Positions 4,382 to 22,039 of a DNA stretch of 22,039 nucleotides are shown in pieces. A program made the translations under genes and the position numbers. Each line of letters begins with the position of its first letter. Within the stretch, counting starts at the first letter, position 1. The notes under the pieces are model-generated. The model saw nothing but the letters and a program-made list of their open reading frames with translations, was not told where the DNA came from and did no database searches. The stretch is from a virus. The DNA is taken from IMG/VR virus record IMGVR_UViG_3300018080_000642, positions 1 through 22,039 of that record. One strand, written 5' to 3'.

Positions 4382-7126
4382 CTATTCATCTCCTTTTTTG
4401 CCCATATCATATTTATTCTTGTTTTCTCTAGCAATTTGAAGCTGTTTATCTGCTATTTCTCTCTGAGCTTGTATCTTTTCTCTCTCAATTTGATTCTTTT
4501 GAGATTGCATACTTATCTTATTAGCTTCCTTTTGTCTATTTAAACTAGTTTGTTCTTGATATTGTTCTGTTTGACGGATTTCTTTCATAGCATCCTGGTA
4601 GTCAGATTGCTGATTTTCATTTAAATCCATCATAGAACCATAACCTGCAGCTCTGATTTCTGCAATAAGGATATCTTTTTGTCTATCTTTTTCTTTCTCA
4701 GCAGCTTCACTATCTCTCTTAAGCTTTTCTTCTTCAGCTTTAGCTTTGATCATCTGCTCCTGCATTTGCTGTTGCTGTTGCATTTCAGCTTGCTTTTGCT
4801 GTTGAATCTTTTCTTCAGATACCTTAAGAGTTTGATTAAGGTCAGCAATTGAGTCAGATTGGATAATCTTACCTAAGTCATATATAGTAGCTCCGGTAGT
4901 ATTATTATTAAGTGCTAATGATTTAAGCTGTTCTAAGATAGCTCTGTTGTTAGCAGTAGTTGTAGCAAATATATTTAAGTCTCTGAGTAATAAATCAGTA
5001 CCATTAATCTCAAAGTTTACTTTTTCATCTGCTGTAGTTACATACGTTAAACGTGCACTTGGTTTAGTGCTGTGATAATATTGTGCTAAGTCTGTACGCA
5101 TTTGGTGTACTCTTGGCATAAGATAATCACAGTGCTGTATAAAGTATGTTTCTGTTTGTGCATAAGAAGCATTTACTGCTTGCTCAACTCCTGTAGCTGT
5201 TTGTTGAGAAAGCTGTTGTCCCATTCTTTGTGGGTTAACACCAATTACTTCATAAGCTTGCTGTTTAAAATAATTAGCAAGTTGTATTCTAGACATCAAA
5301 CGGTTTGTTTGTTCTAAGTCTAGTTTTTGGAAATGTTGGAAGTTTAATGCATTCTCTGTATTTGTGATAGATGTATCAAGAGGAAGCATTTGGAAATCCT
5401 TCATTGCAACATATGCTTTTGCCAAATTACCCTTACCCCAGTCTTCTCCTAAAGAATGACGAGGTAAGGTATTTTGGTCTAATAGAATAACTGTGCCGAG
5501 TTCATCTACTAATATATCTGCAATTTGATTATTTACAATGTTATATCCTATCTGGAAAGGCTTCATTAGATCTACTAAAGCTGTAGACTTAGTATTTCTA
5601 TCTGAGAATATAGATCCTTCTACAGGAAGTTTACATCCATACAAAGAATTATCTCCTTTAAATTGGAACTTAAGAGGCCCAATGTGGTTCTTGTCTATAC
5701 CAAGATATATAGGGGAGAATCCTCCAGGATTATTCATTCCCCAGAATGATGGTACATTAGGTCCTATTTTTAAACCACCCCATACTTCATTAATCCAAAT
5801 CCAATCTATGTGTTCTCCATAGACTAAGTTTTCTGAAGTTCTGTTCTTAAACAGTCTAGTATCATAAATAGGCGTGTCTGTAACTTTGTAATCTTCTGTT
5901 ACTATCTCTGTAATTACTTCACCATTTTCAGCAATCTTTGTTAAGTGCCCTACTTTACGCTGAGACTTCCAATATGCTGTTGTTACACGTAAGAGATATG
6001 CAGTACCTGTATCTGAGTAATCTTCATTTTGAGCTAAGATGTCTGTAACTACATCTCCTCCTTCTAATACAGACCCTGACATCATAGATGTATATTGTCT
6101 GTATGCTAGTGACGGACTGTTAGTATTCCACTCATGTGATTTAGTAGCATCATAGAATGAACCATCATTTTGCAAACCACCAATATTATATCCTGCTGAT
6201 CTAATAGGATAGATTGCTTCTAGAGCCTCTAGTTGCTCTTCAGTCATTAAGTAACCATACTTATCAATAACATCTGCTACTGTAAGCATATCTGTTTTAC
6301 CAATCCAGTTACCTTGTGAAGTATATCTAGCATCTGGTGACTTATGATAGAATGTAAGAGCTGGATTCCAAAGTTCTACTTCATAGTCATCCTCCATCAT
6401 GCGGAAATGCCAAAACTCTCTATCTGTAATAAGCATATCTCTGAAAGCTCTTTCTTCTAGCTCTTCTAGTCTGAATCTTTCAGTATCTACTTTATGTTGG
6501 TGTGAAGCCCATTGCTCCACCATTGATCTATAATCTTTTTTATAGAACTGTTCTATTTGAGGAAGAGTCTTAAGATTATCAGGACTCATTTGTTGTTGAG
6601 CTTCCGGAGAATTAGGATCTAATCCTTGCTCAAGAAGAGCTGCCATTATTTTTGTTTGAGCATCAGCAAGTAACACTTCTTCTACATCAGCTCTTTTTTG
6701 CTCAAGCATTTCATTGTAAGAGAATTCATCAACAGCTCTATAAGTTAATCTAGTTGATCTCTTAGCAAATTCAGCAGTAAGTACATTAATAACATTTGGT
6801 ACAATTGGATAGAACTTTAATTCTAAAGCTGACTCATCTTCTTTTGTTAAAGTTTCTATAATATCTCTGTACTCATTATCATCTTCAATGATATAATCTG
6901 TCTTGTCAATGATCCCCTTTGCAAGCTTATAGTTTTTCATAAACCTGCGGGAGTTTCTTTTAAGTTGTTTTAAACCATTCCACTCTAGCCAATCCAAGTT
7001 CCATGCTGCCCACTCATCATCTTTATCTTTCTTAGGTATAAACTGCAGAGGCTGAGTTATAGAACCCATTCTGTTTTGTTTAACCTTAGCTCCGTTTTTG
7101 AGCTGCATTGCATTATATACCTGCAT
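4382..7126 (-). CDS. Portal protein, crAss-like
   Basis: 914 aa, directly downstream of the large terminase with a 1-nt gap, as in other tailed-phage packaging modules. The body is mixed alpha/beta with the long helices expected of a portal. The last ~145 residues are a Gln/Lys/Glu-rich coiled coil (for example QQQKQAEMQQQQQMQ), which would form an extended barrel or a head-internal extension. The portal dodecamer forms the unique capsid vertex, docks TerL during packaging and holds the tail. The size is large even for podovirus-like portals, mainly through this C-terminal extension. The gene ends with TAG, and reading through it would soon meet TAG and TGA, so TAG is a true stop. The call rests on position, size and overall resemblance. 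Confidence 0.85.
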   Translation of the reverse strand: MQVYNAMQLKNGAKVKQNRMGSITQPLQFIPKKDKDDEWAAWNLDWLEWNGLKQLKRNSRRFMKNYKLAKGIIDKTDYIIEDDNEYRDIIETLTKEDESALELKFYPIVPNVINVLTAEFAKRSTRLTYRAVDEFSYNEMLEQKRADVEEVLLADAQTKIMAALLEQGLDPNSPEAQQQMSPDNLKTLPQIEQFYKKDYRSMVEQWASHQHKVDTERFRLEELEERAFRDMLITDREFWHFRMMEDDYEVELWNPALTFYHKSPDARYTSQGNWIGKTDMLTVADVIDKYGYLMTEEQLEALEAIYPIRSAGYNIGGLQNDGSFYDATKSHEWNTNSPSLAYRQYTSMMSGSVLEGGDVVTDILAQNEDYSDTGTAYLLRVTTAYWKSQRKVGHLTKIAENGEVITEIVTEDYKVTDTPIYDTRLFKNRTSENLVYGEHIDWIWINEVWGGLKIGPNVPSFWGMNNPGGFSPIYLGIDKNHIGPLKFQFKGDNSLYGCKLPVEGSIFSDRNTKSTALVDLMKPFQIGYNIVNNQIADILVDELGTVILLDQNTLPRHSLGEDWGKGNLAKAYVAMKDFQMLPLDTSITNTENALNFQHFQKLDLEQTNRLMSRIQLANYFKQQAYEVIGVNPQRMGQQLSQQTATGVEQAVNASYAQTETYFIQHCDYLMPRVHQMRTDLAQYYHSTKPSARLTYVTTADEKVNFEINGTDLLLRDLNIFATTTANNRAILEQLKSLALNNNTTGATIYDLGKIIQSDSIADLNQTLKVSEEKIQQQKQAEMQQQQQMQEQMIKAKAEEEKLKRDSEAAEKEKDRQKDILIAEIRAAGYGSMMDLNENQQSDYQDAMKEIRQTEQYQEQTSLNRQKEANKISMQSQKNQIEREKIQAQREIADKQLQIARENKNKYDMGKKGDE

Positions 7127-13913: not shown

Positions 13914-13932
13914 TTTAGTATAATATACTAAA
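13914..13932. repeat. 8-bp inverted repeat upstream of the holin gene
   Basis: TTTAGTAT-AAT-ATACTAAA forms perfect 8-bp arms in the ~130-nt gap between the 208-aa fibre gene and the holin ATG. There is no T-run after it, so it is a weak terminator at best. It may be an operator or an RNA hairpin that tunes lysis gene expression. Confidence 0.4.
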
Positions 13933-13963
13933 ATTATTTGATTTTAGTTGCTTCTAAACTAGT

Positions 13964-14590
13964 TTAAAATGTTTTTATCAGAGTTAAAACATCTGACACA
14001 ATAGTATTAGCAGCATTGTTACTTCCCCATTGCGCTGTGATCTCAAGAGTATTTGATACAGTTGTATCAAAGTTTGTAGTTTCAAGAGTGTTAAATCCAG
14101 AACCATCATAGTTTAGATTTGAACTTCTTACATATACAAACTGACCATTAGATAAAATTTGTGCAACTCCTGCACCACCAATTTGACGGATGACAAAGTC
14201 AGCCTCAATTTCCCAGAAATCATTAGTGGTAGCATTAAGAGTCATGGTACCTGTATCGGCCAAAACAATACCATTAGTTTTAATTCTAATTCTTAAGTCT
14301 TCACCGTTAGCACAAGATATGTGACCACCTGCTTTTAAATGAAATGAATCAGCAACAGTGAATCCATCAGCTGGAACTGAAAGCTGTCCAACACCTGTTC
14401 CAATTATAGAACCTTCAGTAGTTGTAGCAGCTACAGGAGTACTAGTTTGAGTCTGAGAGAATAGACCATAATTGTGCGGAGTATTTTCCATAGCCTCTGC
14501 AATAGCAGTCATGCCTTTTAATACTCTATGTTCAAAGTCAAAGTTTGAACCTTTATCTCCATGTTTTGGGTTACCGTTACCTAAGCTCAT
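13964..14590 (-). CDS. Phage fibre/appendage protein with N-terminal anchor motif, 208 aa
   Basis: The N-terminus is a compact motif, SLGNGNPKHGDKGSNFDFE, followed by a short helix (RVLKGMTAIAEAM); such N-termini occur on virion fibre proteins of Bacteroidota phages as I recall. The rest (about 45-208) is a beta-rich, Gly/Thr/Asn-rich domain like a trimeric fibre or receptor-binding shaft (GTGVGQLSVPADGFTVADSF). The probable role is a head or tail fibre with the N-terminus docked to the virion. It starts by a one-base TAATG overlap with a 34-aa gene carrying the same N-terminal motif. It is the last appendage gene before the lysis genes. Confidence 0.65.
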   Translation of the reverse strand: MSLGNGNPKHGDKGSNFDFEHRVLKGMTAIAEAMENTPHNYGLFSQTQTSTPVAATTTEGSIIGTGVGQLSVPADGFTVADSFHLKAGGHISCANGEDLRIRIKTNGIVLADTGTMTLNATTNDFWEIEADFVIRQIGGAGVAQILSNGQFVYVRSSNLNYDGSGFNTLETTNFDTTVSNTLEITAQWGSNNAANTIVSDVLTLIKTF

Positions 14591-18526: not shown

Positions 18527-19090
18527 TTAAAGTTCTTCAAATATAATGTTTTTTTCTAAATCTTTAAGTTTTTCAGATCTTTGTTTTAGAACTTTTGCAG
18601 GAGAGCCAACTAAAATAGAATACTGTTTGAAGCTTTTAGTAATCAAACAATTTGCACCAGCAGCTACTCCTTCATGCAGATGGACTCCTGGTAATATTAC
18701 AGTACTTGCTCCAATAACTACATGCTTATCTAAAGTAACTGCTTTTGATATAGTGTTTCTAAATTTATCTGGAACCGTTGGATTAGTTAAGTAGTTTCCA
18801 GAGTAGTCAGCTGTAGATGAATATATAGAAACTCTAGAGGATAAGCCAGAAAAGTCTTTTAGCACTATTCTTTCAGCTCCGATAAGCAAACAGTAGCAAG
18901 CAATATGTACATAACAACCAATACTAATACCTCCGGTTCCAGCAGATAATATACAGAAATCATCTATTCTTACATTATCACCTATTTCAATATTACCTGG
19001 ATTATATATACTAGTCTTCTTAGATATAAGGACATTTTTACCATAAGACTTAAGACCTAAACTTTCTAGTTCAGTAGAATTATAATACAT
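18527..19090 (-). CDS. Hexapeptide-repeat acyltransferase (LbH fold)
   Basis: 187 aa with the [LIV]-G-x-x hexapeptide pattern of left-handed beta-helix acyltransferases: IEIGDNVRIDDFCIL, ISIGCYVHIACYCLL, then a loop and VVIGASTVILPGVHLHEGVA, ending with the typical GSPAKVLKQRS motif. Such enzymes transfer acetyl or related groups from acyl-CoA to sugars or sugar nucleotides, usually as trimers. It directly follows a DegT-type aminotransferase gene with an 11-nt overlap, the pairing seen in N-acetylated amino-sugar pathways (aminotransferase then N-acetyltransferase, as in dTDP-Fuc3NAc synthesis). The substrate is unknown. Last gene of the cassette. Confidence 0.85.
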   Translation of the reverse strand: MYYNSTELESLGLKSYGKNVLISKKTSIYNPGNIEIGDNVRIDDFCILSAGTGGISIGCYVHIACYCLLIGAERIVLKDFSGLSSRVSIYSSTADYSGNYLTNPTVPDKFRNTISKAVTLDKHVVIGASTVILPGVHLHEGVAAGANCLITKSFKQYSILVGSPAKVLKQRSEKLKDLEKNIIFEEL

Positions 19091-19694
19091 AAATAGGATA
19101 TTTTGATAAGTCTGGATAAGATAGCTCTATATCTGGGTTCTGCTTCTTACTTCCGTCTTGATTATAAAATTGGGCCATTTGTTGTATGCCTCTAGTAGCT
19201 AGTTCAGGAATCATATAAAAGTTCCAGCCTAGCATATCAAAGTTATCATCATGGTAAGAGCATTCATTTCTTCCACTAAACCTAGCTCTTTTAAACCACT
19301 CATATGCTGCATGATCATCAGTAAGTATAGCTCCTCCTTTAGATAGTTTCAAATGTTTATAAGCCCCAGTAAAAGATAAACACATATGTGTTCCTGGTAT
19401 ATACATATCTGCAGTAAATCTTAGTGCAGAGTCCCAGACCTTTGTTGGTTTCAATTGATAGGCTCCTTGAAAACCACCCTCTATAAACTTTACTTTTCCA
19501 CCAGCATGAATAATCTCACAAGGAACTGATGGATATGTTCTTGATGGTATAGAAACTTCTATATCTTTAATACCCTCATACATTAACCCTAAAAATAAAG
19601 CATTACTCAAGCTATCTATACAGATCACATAAGGAGCCCCTGTATATTCTGAAAGTATTTTTTCAAACTCTTTGGTTGTATTGTGTGGATTCAT
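19080..19694 (-). CDS. Shortened DegT/DnrJ/EryC1/StrS-type sugar aminotransferase
   Basis: 204 aa against about 370 for the family. The N-terminal large domain matches: FEKILSEYTGAPYVICIDSL (family FE..FA.Y.G...av...SgT.AL), VWDSALRF at 87-93 (PLP-ring Asp88 equivalent), SFTGAYKHLKLSKGGAI at 107-122 with Lys113 in the place of the PLP Schiff-base lysine (family S-F...K-N-L...GEGG), and MLGWNFYMIPELATRGIQQM at 154-173 (family LG.N.RM...QAA.G..QL). It then ends after a short tail, without the C-terminal domain. The stop is a true TAA, with the next gene overlapping, so this is a compact phage form rather than a frameshift. It should make amino-sugar nucleotides if active. Confidence 0.8.
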   Translation of the reverse strand: MNPHNTTKEFEKILSEYTGAPYVICIDSLSNALFLGLMYEGIKDIEVSIPSRTYPSVPCEIIHAGGKVKFIEGGFQGAYQLKPTKVWDSALRFTADMYIPGTHMCLSFTGAYKHLKLSKGGAILTDDHAAYEWFKRARFSGRNECSYHDDNFDMLGWNFYMIPELATRGIQQMAQFYNQDGSKKQNPDIELSYPDLSKYPIYVL

Positions 19695-20335
19695 TACTTA
19701 AGTTTTGTCAGCTTTTTTGTTTCACCATCATATATATCACCTGCAGTATCAGGAGGAAGACCTCCTAAGTACTCAATAAAATGATCTTTGCTGTAAAATC
19801 TTTTAGGATAATGAAACATGGTAAAATGATATCTGCACCATCTAACTTCTCCTGGTGGATTTACTGTATGGGCTCCTAGTGTATAATTAATTTCACCTAT
19901 AGACTTTCTAAACATAAGAGACTTACAATACCAAGGGTGTAATCTACCATAAGTAAACTCTCTAGGATCGGAACTATCAGTTCCTACCATGTTGTAACCT
20001 TTAAACTTTATCACATCATAATCTTCTATTGAAGCTAAGTCCGCTAAACTAATATTTATCAATTCATCTTGATCAACAACTATTATCCACTCAGCTTCAG
20101 AATTTTTCCAAGAGTTATTTCTAATATCATTTACTGAAATAGCTTTAGGTTCCTCAAAATCACAATCTATAACTTCACATCCCCTACTCCTACAGTAGTC
20201 TCCAGTCTCATCAGTAGAATTATCATTAAAAATATTTATCCTACATCCAGGAAACCTTTCCTGATAATGATCTAAAAACATAGGCAGTATATGCATGCCA
20301 TTATACGCTGGAACAAAAATCTCTACTTTATTCAT
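19694..20335 (-). CDS. Family 2 glycosyltransferase
   Basis: 213 aa from the ATG at 20335 (MNKVEIFVPAYNG); an ATG two codons upstream is also possible, and longer readings only overlap the upstream gene. GT-A family 2 features: IFVPAYNG (nucleotide-binding start), IFNDNSTDET at 35-44 (family v.DD.STD.T), and VVDQDEL at 86-92 with the D-x-D-type metal site (Asp88, Asp90). The C-terminal part has RYHFTMFHYPKRF, like the HY motif of Glyco_tranf_2_4-type enzymes. It would transfer a sugar from a nucleotide donor to a host glycan, phage protein or DNA base. TAATG overlap links it to the aminotransferase gene. Confidence 0.85.
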   Translation of the reverse strand: MNKVEIFVPAYNGMHILPMFLDHYQERFPGCRINIFNDNSTDETGDYCRSRGCEVIDCDFEEPKAISVNDIRNNSWKNSEAEWIIVVDQDELINISLADLASIEDYDVIKFKGYNMVGTDSSDPREFTYGRLHPWYCKSLMFRKSIGEINYTLGAHTVNPPGEVRWCRYHFTMFHYPKRFYSKDHFIEYLGGLPPDTAGDIYDGETKKLTKLK

Positions 20336-21143: not shown

Positions 21144-21177
21144 AATAAAACATTTTGATTAGAATACAATTTACAAA

Positions 21178-21202
21178 TTTGCGGGGACACATCCCAAGCA
21201 AA
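21178..21202. repeat. Imperfect hairpin upstream of the leftward genes
   Basis: TTTGC and GCAAA enclose a GGGG...TCCC pairing with a small bulge. It lies about 35 nt upstream of the ATG at 21143, in the 208-nt divergent gap (21144-21351). It could be a leader structure or a protein-binding site. Confidence 0.35.
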
Positions 21203-21259
21203 ATGAATTTAGGGGTAAATAAAAATAGTAAGTTAGAGATTCTGTTGGGTCCTATGCTA

Positions 21260-21277
21260 AAAAGCCCCCGGGCTTTT
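21260..21277. terminator. Perfect hairpin AAAAGCCC-CC-GGGCTTTT, possibly bidirectional
   Basis: Perfect 8-bp arms with A- and T-rich flanks on both sides, so it could terminate in either direction (TTTTCTT on the plus strand, TTTTT on the minus strand). It is oddly placed in a divergent gap, where no gene is seen ending. Confidence 0.55.
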
Positions 21278-21304
21278 CTTCATCAGGGGTACCCCCTTAT
21301 GAAG
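21278..21304. repeat. 27-nt inverted repeat with GGGGTACCCC core
   Basis: CTTCAT and ATGAAG arms flank AGGGG/CCCCT, with one mismatch on each side of the arms and a GGGGTACCCC core. It abuts the preceding hairpin and ends 10 nt before the first CTAACCCTT element. Candidate operator or origin-associated structure. Confidence 0.5.
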
Positions 21305-21313
21305 CTAAAGAGA

Positions 21314-21328
21314 CTAACCCTTTTATAA
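21314..21328 (+). promoter_or_regulatory. CTAACCCTT element 1
   Basis: CTAACCCTTTTATAA, starting 38 nt before the ATG at 21352. Identical over 15 nt to element 3 and over the first 9 nt to element 2. Probable early promoter or leader element. Confidence 0.55.
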
Positions 21329-21351
21329 CTATAAATATAAAATTTATAGCT

Positions 21352-21570
21352 ATGAAAAGAATTAGAGTTTACTACGCAAACATCTGTGATCACAAAGGCA
21401 AGCCTGTGTTCTCTACAAAAGTTTATGCAAGCAACAGACAAGCTGCTGCAGTTGCATTGAATCTTATAGATAAGATTCCTCCTGCAATGTCCTTTAGCAT
21501 CCACTTCAGAGAAGTGACTACCAAAGAAATAGCTGAGCTCCTTAACGGAGTTCAGCATTTTTTTTCCTAA
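21352..21570 (+). CDS. Small rightward protein, 72 aa, unknown
   Basis: Starts MKRIRVYYANICDHKGKP, with two probable beta strands, then a helix (SNRQAAAVALNLIDKIP) and a last strand before a C-terminal helix (TTKEIAELLNGV), an alpha/beta layout like small adaptor proteins. Preferred over the overlapping minus-strand frame because it has an ATG, the shared upstream element at fixed distance, and a terminator on the same strand. The terminator hairpin lies within the last codons, and the stop TAA at 21568-21570 is part of the next CTAACCC element. Function unknown; its position suggests early expression. Confidence 0.6.
   Translation: MKRIRVYYANICDHKGKPVFSTKVYASNRQAAAVALNLIDKIPPAMSFSIHFREVTTKEIAELLNGVQHFFS
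21532..21565 (+). terminator. Intrinsic terminator inside the end of the 72-aa gene
   Basis: GCTGAGCTCC pairs with GGAGTTCAGC over 10 positions (one G-T wobble) around TTAAC (21532-21556), followed by an eight-T run at 21558-21565. The stop codon of the gene is at 21568-21570, after the T-run, so RNA ending within the T-run would lack it. Confidence 0.75.
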
Positions 21571-21579
21571 CCCTTATAT
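21567..21579 (+). promoter_or_regulatory. CTAACCCTT element 2
   Basis: CTAACCCTTATAT, starting exactly 38 nt before the ATG at 21605, the same distance as element 1. It contains the stop codon of the 72-aa gene and follows its terminator directly. Confidence 0.5.
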
Positions 21580-21604
21580 TAATGAAAATTCAAAATTTTA
21601 CATT

Positions 21605-21739
21605 ATGAAAAATAAATCTAATGCATTGAGAATAGCAAAGGCTAATCACAAGAAGAATGGTGCACTTCTACCTGAGAGACAAAGACTAGCTTTGAAACTC
21701 ATGAAGAAGTTTCCAAAAGTAACTTTAGAACTAAAGTAA
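21605..21739 (+). CDS. Small basic protein, 44 aa
   Basis: A complete 44-codon frame: MKNKSNALRIAKANHKKNG, then LLPERQRLALKLMKKFPKV and LELK before TAA. It is strongly basic and helical, so a nucleic-acid-binding or host-protein-binding peptide is plausible. It has its own CTAACCCTT element upstream and its own terminator downstream. The last codons and the stop fall in a 17-bp tandem duplication. Function unknown. Confidence 0.6.
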   Translation: MKNKSNALRIAKANHKKNGALLPERQRLALKLMKKFPKVTLELK

Positions 21740-21752
21740 CTTTAGGACTAAA
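21719..21752 (+). repeat. 17-bp tandem duplication at the end of the 44-aa gene
   Basis: GTAACTTTAGAACTAAA (21719-21735) is followed directly by GTAACTTTAGGACTAAA (21736-21752), one mismatch, then GTAA. Each unit contains the palindrome CTTTAG-NN-CTAAAG. The stop codon of the 44-aa gene (21737-21739) lies in the second copy. Confidence 0.8.
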
Positions 21753-21759
21753 GTAAAAG

Positions 21760-21786
21760 AGGGCTTAGGCCCTTTTTCTTTTTTTT
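21760..21786 (+). terminator. Intrinsic terminator after the 44-aa gene
   Basis: AGGGC-TTAG-GCCCT stem-loop (21760-21773) followed by TTTTCTTTTTTTT. It sits 20 nt after the stop codon. Confidence 0.8.
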
Positions 21787-21801
21787 GCTAACAAAAAAAG
21801 G

Positions 21802-21816
21802 CTAACCCTTTTATAA
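21802..21816 (+). promoter_or_regulatory. CTAACCCTT element 3
   Basis: CTAACCCTTTTATAA, identical to element 1, starting 33 nt before the ATG at 21835 and 15 nt after the preceding terminator. Confidence 0.55.
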
Positions 21817-21834
21817 ACGCAAAATAAATTTGCT

Positions 21835-22039
21835 ATGAAAAAAGAAAAAATTAAAACTCTTGAAATCAAGATTTTTAAATCTAAGAATGACAATGTATCC
21901 AGCTGGGGATACCTTATCAAAGACATAAACTCTGACAAGTTCTATGTCAAGCACAAGAAATATCTTACAAAGATATTTGGCAAGAAGCCTTTTGACACTA
22001 TCTATAAGATAGACGCCAAAGTCTTCAAGAATGAGAAAG
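21835..22039 (+). CDS. Small rightward protein, cut by window end
   Basis: At least 68 residues from the ATG at 21835 with no stop before the window edge. It starts MKKEKIKTLEIKIFKSKND, is Lys-rich, and continues with beta-strand and aromatic segments (WGYLIKDINSDKFYVKHKKY, IYKIDAKVFKNEK). It has the same upstream element as the two preceding genes. Not recognised; probably an early protein of the same set. Confidence 0.6.
   Translation, partial: MKKEKIKTLEIKIFKSKNDNVSSWGYLIKDINSDKFYVKHKKYLTKIFGKKPFDTIYKIDAKVFKNEK

Follow-up and report, generated by a model that had tools for sequence, protein, structure and literature searches.

Arrays of short oriented elements in environmental crAss-like phages: probable early promoters for the virion RNA polymerase

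The three small genes at the right end of an environmental virus contig are each preceded by the same short sequence, CTAACCCTT, and comparable arrays, whose 2-12 elements are specific to the lineage, are found in some 20 environmental crAss-like phages related at genus level. These elements are most probably phage-specific early promoters that are read by the virion RNA polymerase (vRNAP) of the phage, each opening a self-contained unit. The initial annotation, made from the sequence of the contig, had suggested a phage-specific early promoter, and this suggestion is strongly supported by the arrays, which are oriented, come after terminators, open the early half of the genome, also stand in front of non-coding units and do not occur elsewhere. 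On balance, we also favour the view that the arrays are the promoters of crAss-like vRNAPs, and that polymerase and promoter set switch together, as mutually distinct pairs in otherwise near-identical phages.

According to the model that we propose, each CTAACCCTT would be a short directional phage promoter, and an early unit would run from this promoter through a leader, in which an AT-rich hairpin is frequent, and a single small gene or small RNA to an intrinsic terminator. The reader would be the phage's own giant vRNAP, injected with the DNA, and the host enzyme would not be used. A 5' core of about 7 nt (CTAACCC in the contig studied here) would be the part that sets specificity, changing with the polymerase, and the ACT that most lineages share, some 10 nt further on, probably adjoins the transcription start. 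The vRNAP locus, ~40 kb away, may recombine or diverge rapidly, with the core changing to match in all 2-12 early promoters. Some of the promoters would drive tiny structured RNAs, and the last one would be followed at once by a hairpin terminator.

Elements and units in the window

The window analysed here is the entire 22,039-base virus record IMGVR_UViG_3300018080_000642. Its leftward genes include those for the head of a crAss-like phage, with PHROG matches for MCP, portal and terminase (phrog_11589, phrog_6547 and phrog_6681), and the best tblastn matches of its terminase are to Crassvirales, at 23-27% identity. A nucleotide search of public phages gave no near relative, and the bacterial genome contigs searched gave no relative and hence no host. 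At the right end lie three small rightward genes, beyond a divergence region which is the point where the array starts in all relatives (Table 1). Neither the three small proteins nor the vRNAP core described below matched a family in Pfam or PHROGs, and an Rfam search of the window returned nothing.

Three exact copies of CTAACCCTT are present in the window, at 21314, 21567 and 21802, all on the + strand. The distances given in the initial annotation, 38, 38 and 33 nt before the ATGs at 21352, 21605 and 21835, were confirmed, as was the identity of elements 1 and 3 over 15 nt (CTAACCCTTTTATAA), and no leftward gene has CTAACCCTT upstream of it, as had also been seen. The three small genes that it described are indeed headed by elements, the third of them running off the end of the window. 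In shuffled windows the mean count of CTAACCCTT is 0.26, and 0 of 100 shuffles reach three copies. With one mismatch allowed the total in the window is not above chance, and in 34 of 300 shuffles some GC-containing 9-mer occurs three times within 600 nt. Taken by itself, the triple repeat in the window is therefore a statistically weak, suggestive signal; it is the relatives that make the observation certain.

The strong terminators previously ascribed to the first two genes are hairpins with T tails (21532-21556 and 21756-21777), and the region holds four terminator-like hairpins against 0.5 expected. Of these, the unit 1 hairpin is particularly strong (-18.1 kcal/mol, z -6.4). As it falls within gene 1, and the stop codon of that gene within element 2, a transcript stopping at the unit 1 terminator would lack the gene 1 stop codon; the same layout as in the window (21532-21570) is found in the close relative L004. 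An AAATTT stretch had been noted near the ATG in each leader, and it proves to be the 3' arm of an AT-rich hairpin in all three. Across the arrays such leader hairpins are strongest in the first units (mean z -1.8 vs -0.06 for other units). In G031, G032, G040, G041, G049, G054, G052 and the window, the first unit tends to have its AT-rich hairpin directly in front of the ATG or extending over it.

Table 1. Features at the right end of the window (positions in the 22,039-base record)
Feature	Position	Strand	Description
Divergence region	21144..21313	.	separates leftward structural (late) half from rightward early half
Candidate promoter element 1	21314..21328	+	CTAACCCTTTTATAA, core CTAACCC, heads unit 1; identical in L004
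Leader 1 AT-rich hairpin	21324..21354	+	CTATAAAT...ATTTATAG, ends at start codon; fold z -4.9
Small gene 1	21352..21570	+	72 aa, no known family; stop codon within element 2
Intrinsic terminator, unit 1	21532..21564	+	10 bp stem, T8 tail; overlaps gene 1 3' end
Candidate promoter element 2	21567..21581	+	CTAACCCTTATATTA, heads unit 2; starts at most 3 nt from the T tail of the preceding terminator
Leader 2 AT-rich hairpin	21580..21605	+	fold z -2.2
Small gene 2	21605..21739	+	44 aa, no known family
Intrinsic terminator, unit 2	21756..21786	+	hairpin with T tail
Candidate promoter element 3	21802..21816	+	CTAACCCTTTTATAA, heads unit 3
Leader 3 AT-rich hairpin	21819..21833	+	GCAAA...TTTGC; fold z -3.5
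Small gene 3	21835..22039	+	at least 68 aa, continues past record end

A search of viral contigs with the exact 15-mer CTAACCCTTTTATAA returned 101 stretches, mainly chance single matches, and recovered L004, a contig that is 95-96% identical to the window and reaches further. L004 has eight consecutive CTAACCCT elements on one strand, the early one (CTAACCCTTTTATAA, CTAACCCTTATATTA, CTAACCCTGTTATTA and others), most of which come straight after T-rich or terminator sequence. Seven of the eight head small genes and the last heads a hairpin without a clear gene. The homologue of small gene 1 in L199/L004 is 86% identical. The units behave as cassettes, since L004 has one complete extra unit between units 2 and 3 of the window. 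At 13928-14100 of its reverse strand (locus 317-489), beyond the last element and hairpin, L004 has non-coding DNA with many ACTAAATACT-type repeats, possibly a replication origin, and AGTAATTAGT-type words similarly come after the last element in G040, G041, G049 and G054. Elsewhere in the window, positions 18545-20328 hold a cassette of hexapeptide acyltransferase-like, aminotransferase-like and glycosyltransferase-like genes, named by eye from the ORF sequences. This cassette looks recently gained or lost, as it is missing in L004 despite flanks that are 95-96% identical.

Arrays in relatives and the virion RNA polymerase

The genus-level relatives are ~75% identical in their structural genes, and CTAACCCTT is missing from the array position. 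In the first 20 relatives it gave scattered chance matches, a seeming refutation which was overturned once the core of each relative had been found. The cores were found via unbiased word counts on the early strand, and the words come after terminators, about 30-54 nt before an ATG, in the first 3-4 kb past the divergence of the genome halves. Two divergent halves, late and early, are recognised by strand runs in G001, G003-G005, G008 and others. The core of the window, CTAACCC, is that of G031, G032, G040, G041, G049 and G054. The other cores are ACATCTT (G001, 12 copies), ACAGCTT (G002, G011, G012 and G038), ATAACTTT (G003), CCAACTC (G004), ACCATTTT (G005, G010 and G015, with the near-identical CCATTTT in G008), CTAGCCC (G016), ACCTCTT (G020), TTCAGCTC (G026), TATTTTT (G029) and ATAACCTA (G052).

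In most lineages ACT follows ~10 nt after the start of the core, exactly so in 107 of 142 elements, and T-rich sequence from terminator tails occupies the 20 nt upstream in 107 of the 142 vs a background of 12%. When whole records were searched, the matches that fell within the lineage's own array were 31 of 32 for CCATTTTWTAACT, 4 of 4 for CCAACTCANAACT and 13 of 13 for CTAACCCNNNACT. An element-pattern search of all viral contigs added 16 new contigs, 14 of which have 3-6 sense and 0 antisense copies within 3 kb. The initial annotation had proposed a motif search in relatives, with random positions and strands as the outcome that would speak against a promoter; what the relatives have instead is a directional motif confined to the earliest gene block, a position which points to early timing. 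G042 and G043, which have the same vRNAP class and no pattern matches, were considered as counterexamples and dismissed, the array region being absent from both records.

A giant virion protein that bears EIVAKSGADFDVDKLTTF or a variant of this motif is encoded in the relatives, and a profile of its core matches the crystal structure 6vr4, the RNA polymerase of the crAss-like phage phi14:2 (E=5.4e-21). This giant vRNAP, with its DxDxD motif (SGADFDVDKL), was found in the relatives only. The window record does not contain one, and the vRNAP of the window's own lineage was not found; it is predicted to belong to the CTAACCC class (G031/G032/G040/G041/G049/G054).

A virion RNA polymerase as the reader had been put forward in the initial annotation, and is supported by the core covarying with the vRNAP and not with the terminase or the DNA polymerase. 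The identity matrices of vRNAP and terminase are strongly discordant. In 16 genomes, sampled partly by vRNAP similarity and with cores anchored by hand or eye, the partial rank correlation of motif with vRNAP given terminase is 0.51 (p=5e-5), and that of motif with terminase given vRNAP is -0.10. A stricter, offset-tolerant motif test against vRNAP gives a weaker correlation (0.26, p=0.008), and with DNA polymerase as the control the value for vRNAP is 0.32 (p=0.005) and the reverse -0.20. The core is common to the nearest vRNAP neighbour in 10 of 10 genomes, vs 6 of 10 by terminase, and nearest neighbours agree in core in 7 of 7 cases by vRNAP vs 5 of 7 by DNA polymerase.

The terminases of G040, G041 and G049 are nearest to those of G001, G038 and G002 (85-89%). 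Their vRNAPs are 61-82% identical to the G031/G032/G054 class vs 37-40% to G001/G002/G038, and they carry CTAACCC, the core of that class. G004 and G005 are 100% identical in MCP, 97% in portal and 92% in DNA polymerase; their vRNAPs are 73% identical in the core region and 56% over a larger N-terminal part, and their promoter cores differ. G010, with the same core as G005, has a vRNAP core 97% identical to that of G005. G038 was picked solely for the similarity of its vRNAP to that of G002, and the predicted ACAGCTT array was found. At moderate vRNAP identity the core can be the same, as in G002/G012 (55%), yet G002 and G029, at 56%, differ. Covariation with the core extends to ORF2205 and ORF1099, two virion proteins encoded beside the vRNAP, and is not seen for ORF978. 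The reader could therefore be the vRNAP plus a partner, or a partner could be the specificity factor.

The last point bears on a different reading, in which the elements are early promoters read by the host RNA polymerase with a host sigma, or through some specificity factor, distinct from the vRNAP, that the phage encodes or its virion carries. Besides the covariation of ORF1099 and ORF2205, the bacterial appearance of the terminators and an annotated sigma-like gene in the related gut phage cr10_1 would fit such a reading. A fixed host sigma, however, would not explain why cores differ between phages that are 90-100% identical in structural and replication genes, and the element has no TTTG...TAnnTTTG architecture. 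The Bacteroidetes sigma consensus (TTTG near -33, TAnnTTTG near -7) is absent from it. The host-type TAnnTTTG boxes which had been described for the other strand occur in the window at chance frequency (30 vs 30.6 expected), one copy being situated 2 nt before an ATG. We therefore consider a host sigma or another factor an unlikely explanation, and recognition by the vRNAP the probable one.

Non-coding units and the level of action

After the last element, members of the CTAACCC class have a hairpin and a T tract. This hairpin covaries: 7 of 9 pairs are altered on both sides, and the covariation exceeds that in all 500 shuffles and all slid controls. In G002, G008 and G010 one element heads an RNA of ~150 nt which opens with a stem like ATTGATAGAG...CTCTATCAAT. 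Element-headed copies of this non-coding RNA, with the 5' hairpin and a terminator, were located at L253 13445-13600, L259 (reverse strand) 6584-6730 and G008 early strand 602-760, and Rfam gave no significant match for the G010 array or for the G010/L253 copy. Since some units opened by these elements are non-coding and have a covarying hairpin downstream, the elements would act in transcription and not in translation. The hairpins of the non-coding units start 17-25 nt past the start of the core, which suggests that transcription starts between core and hairpin, i.e. near the ACT.

A leader recognised at translation, the other option raised in the initial annotation, would recruit ribosomes or protect the mRNA from within the 5' UTR of the small genes. 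The fairly constant distance between element and ATG (median ACT-to-ATG distance 26 nt) and the AT-rich hairpin immediately 5' of the ATG in the window leaders are in keeping with this. Such a leader should always stand before an open reading frame, however, and it fails as a general explanation, as several elements precede non-coding RNAs with covarying hairpins. The elements also start directly after terminator tails, and the leader hairpin is not general, given its weakness beyond the first units. A role in translation is thus very improbable. Least probable of all are operator sites where a phage regulator binds over unrelated promoters, or a functionless dispersed repeat: cassette duplication can yield short shared words in tandem units, and L004 has one extra unit, but the element is non-palindromic, strictly oriented and identically placed in every unit, the downstream genes are unrelated, and all copies in a genome switch with the vRNAP.

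If the elements are vRNAP promoters, their roughly ten distinct cores, each with its own polymerase variant, would allow direct tests of recognition, and the pairing of core and polymerase points to vRNAP regions that may set specificity. With the promoter family, sequence would suffice to annotate early units and small RNAs, and the separate polymerase-promoter pairs may serve laboratory use. It would also represent a coordinated change of a polymerase gene and a promoter array that lie tens of kilobases apart.

Comparison with known transcription systems

The literature searched, with the phi14:2 polymerase paper outside its scope, contained no paper on the promoters or start-site choice of crAss-like vRNAPs, so that no promoter family would have been proposed for the polymerases of these phages before this one. 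Coliphage N4 injects a giant polymerase that uses a handful of early promoters; these contain a conserved hairpin, and the N4 vRNAP is related to that of T7. The crAss-like element differs in having no internal hairpin, as the element itself does not pair and hairpins lie downstream in the leaders, and the polymerase is of the unrelated two-barrel type. The transcription programme of crAss-like phages has nevertheless been likened to that of N4 (PMC10136315). Bacteroidetes promoters (TTTG / TAnnTTTG) are likewise AT-rich with short leaders, but their consensus is absent here, and the core is lineage-specific and tracks the phage polymerase.

The early timing is taken over from crAss001 (PMC8375218) and phi14:2 (PMC10136315). 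Both share with the phages described here the polymerase family (6vr4 for phi14:2) and the arrangement in which early genes open the half opposite the structural genes. They differ in the array, since the same scan found no comparable one in crAss001, phi14:2 or gut phage cr10_1; these are three better-known members of the Crassvirales, and the system is thus described only for the present environmental lineage. The early region of crAss001 (MH675552 96176-96750) has four TTACTTCAA words, spaced ~90-240 nt apart, beside tRNA-like sequence, and its TACTTCAA repeats are also located near tRNA-like sequence.

The Thermus phage P23-45 has a virion RNAP, gp96, and AT-rich pre-early promoters (PMC10770324). 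Its pre-early motif was mapped by ONT-cappable-seq and ChIP-seq, and is missing in relatives without that vRNAP (PMC10770324). The likeness lies in a two-barrel virion RNAP, a dedicated upstream motif, and the confinement of the motif to relatives with that vRNAP. The motif, host and phage type are different, and the promoters were mapped there, whereas the evidence here is purely comparative. In the crAss-like phages, the core additionally switches between close relatives.
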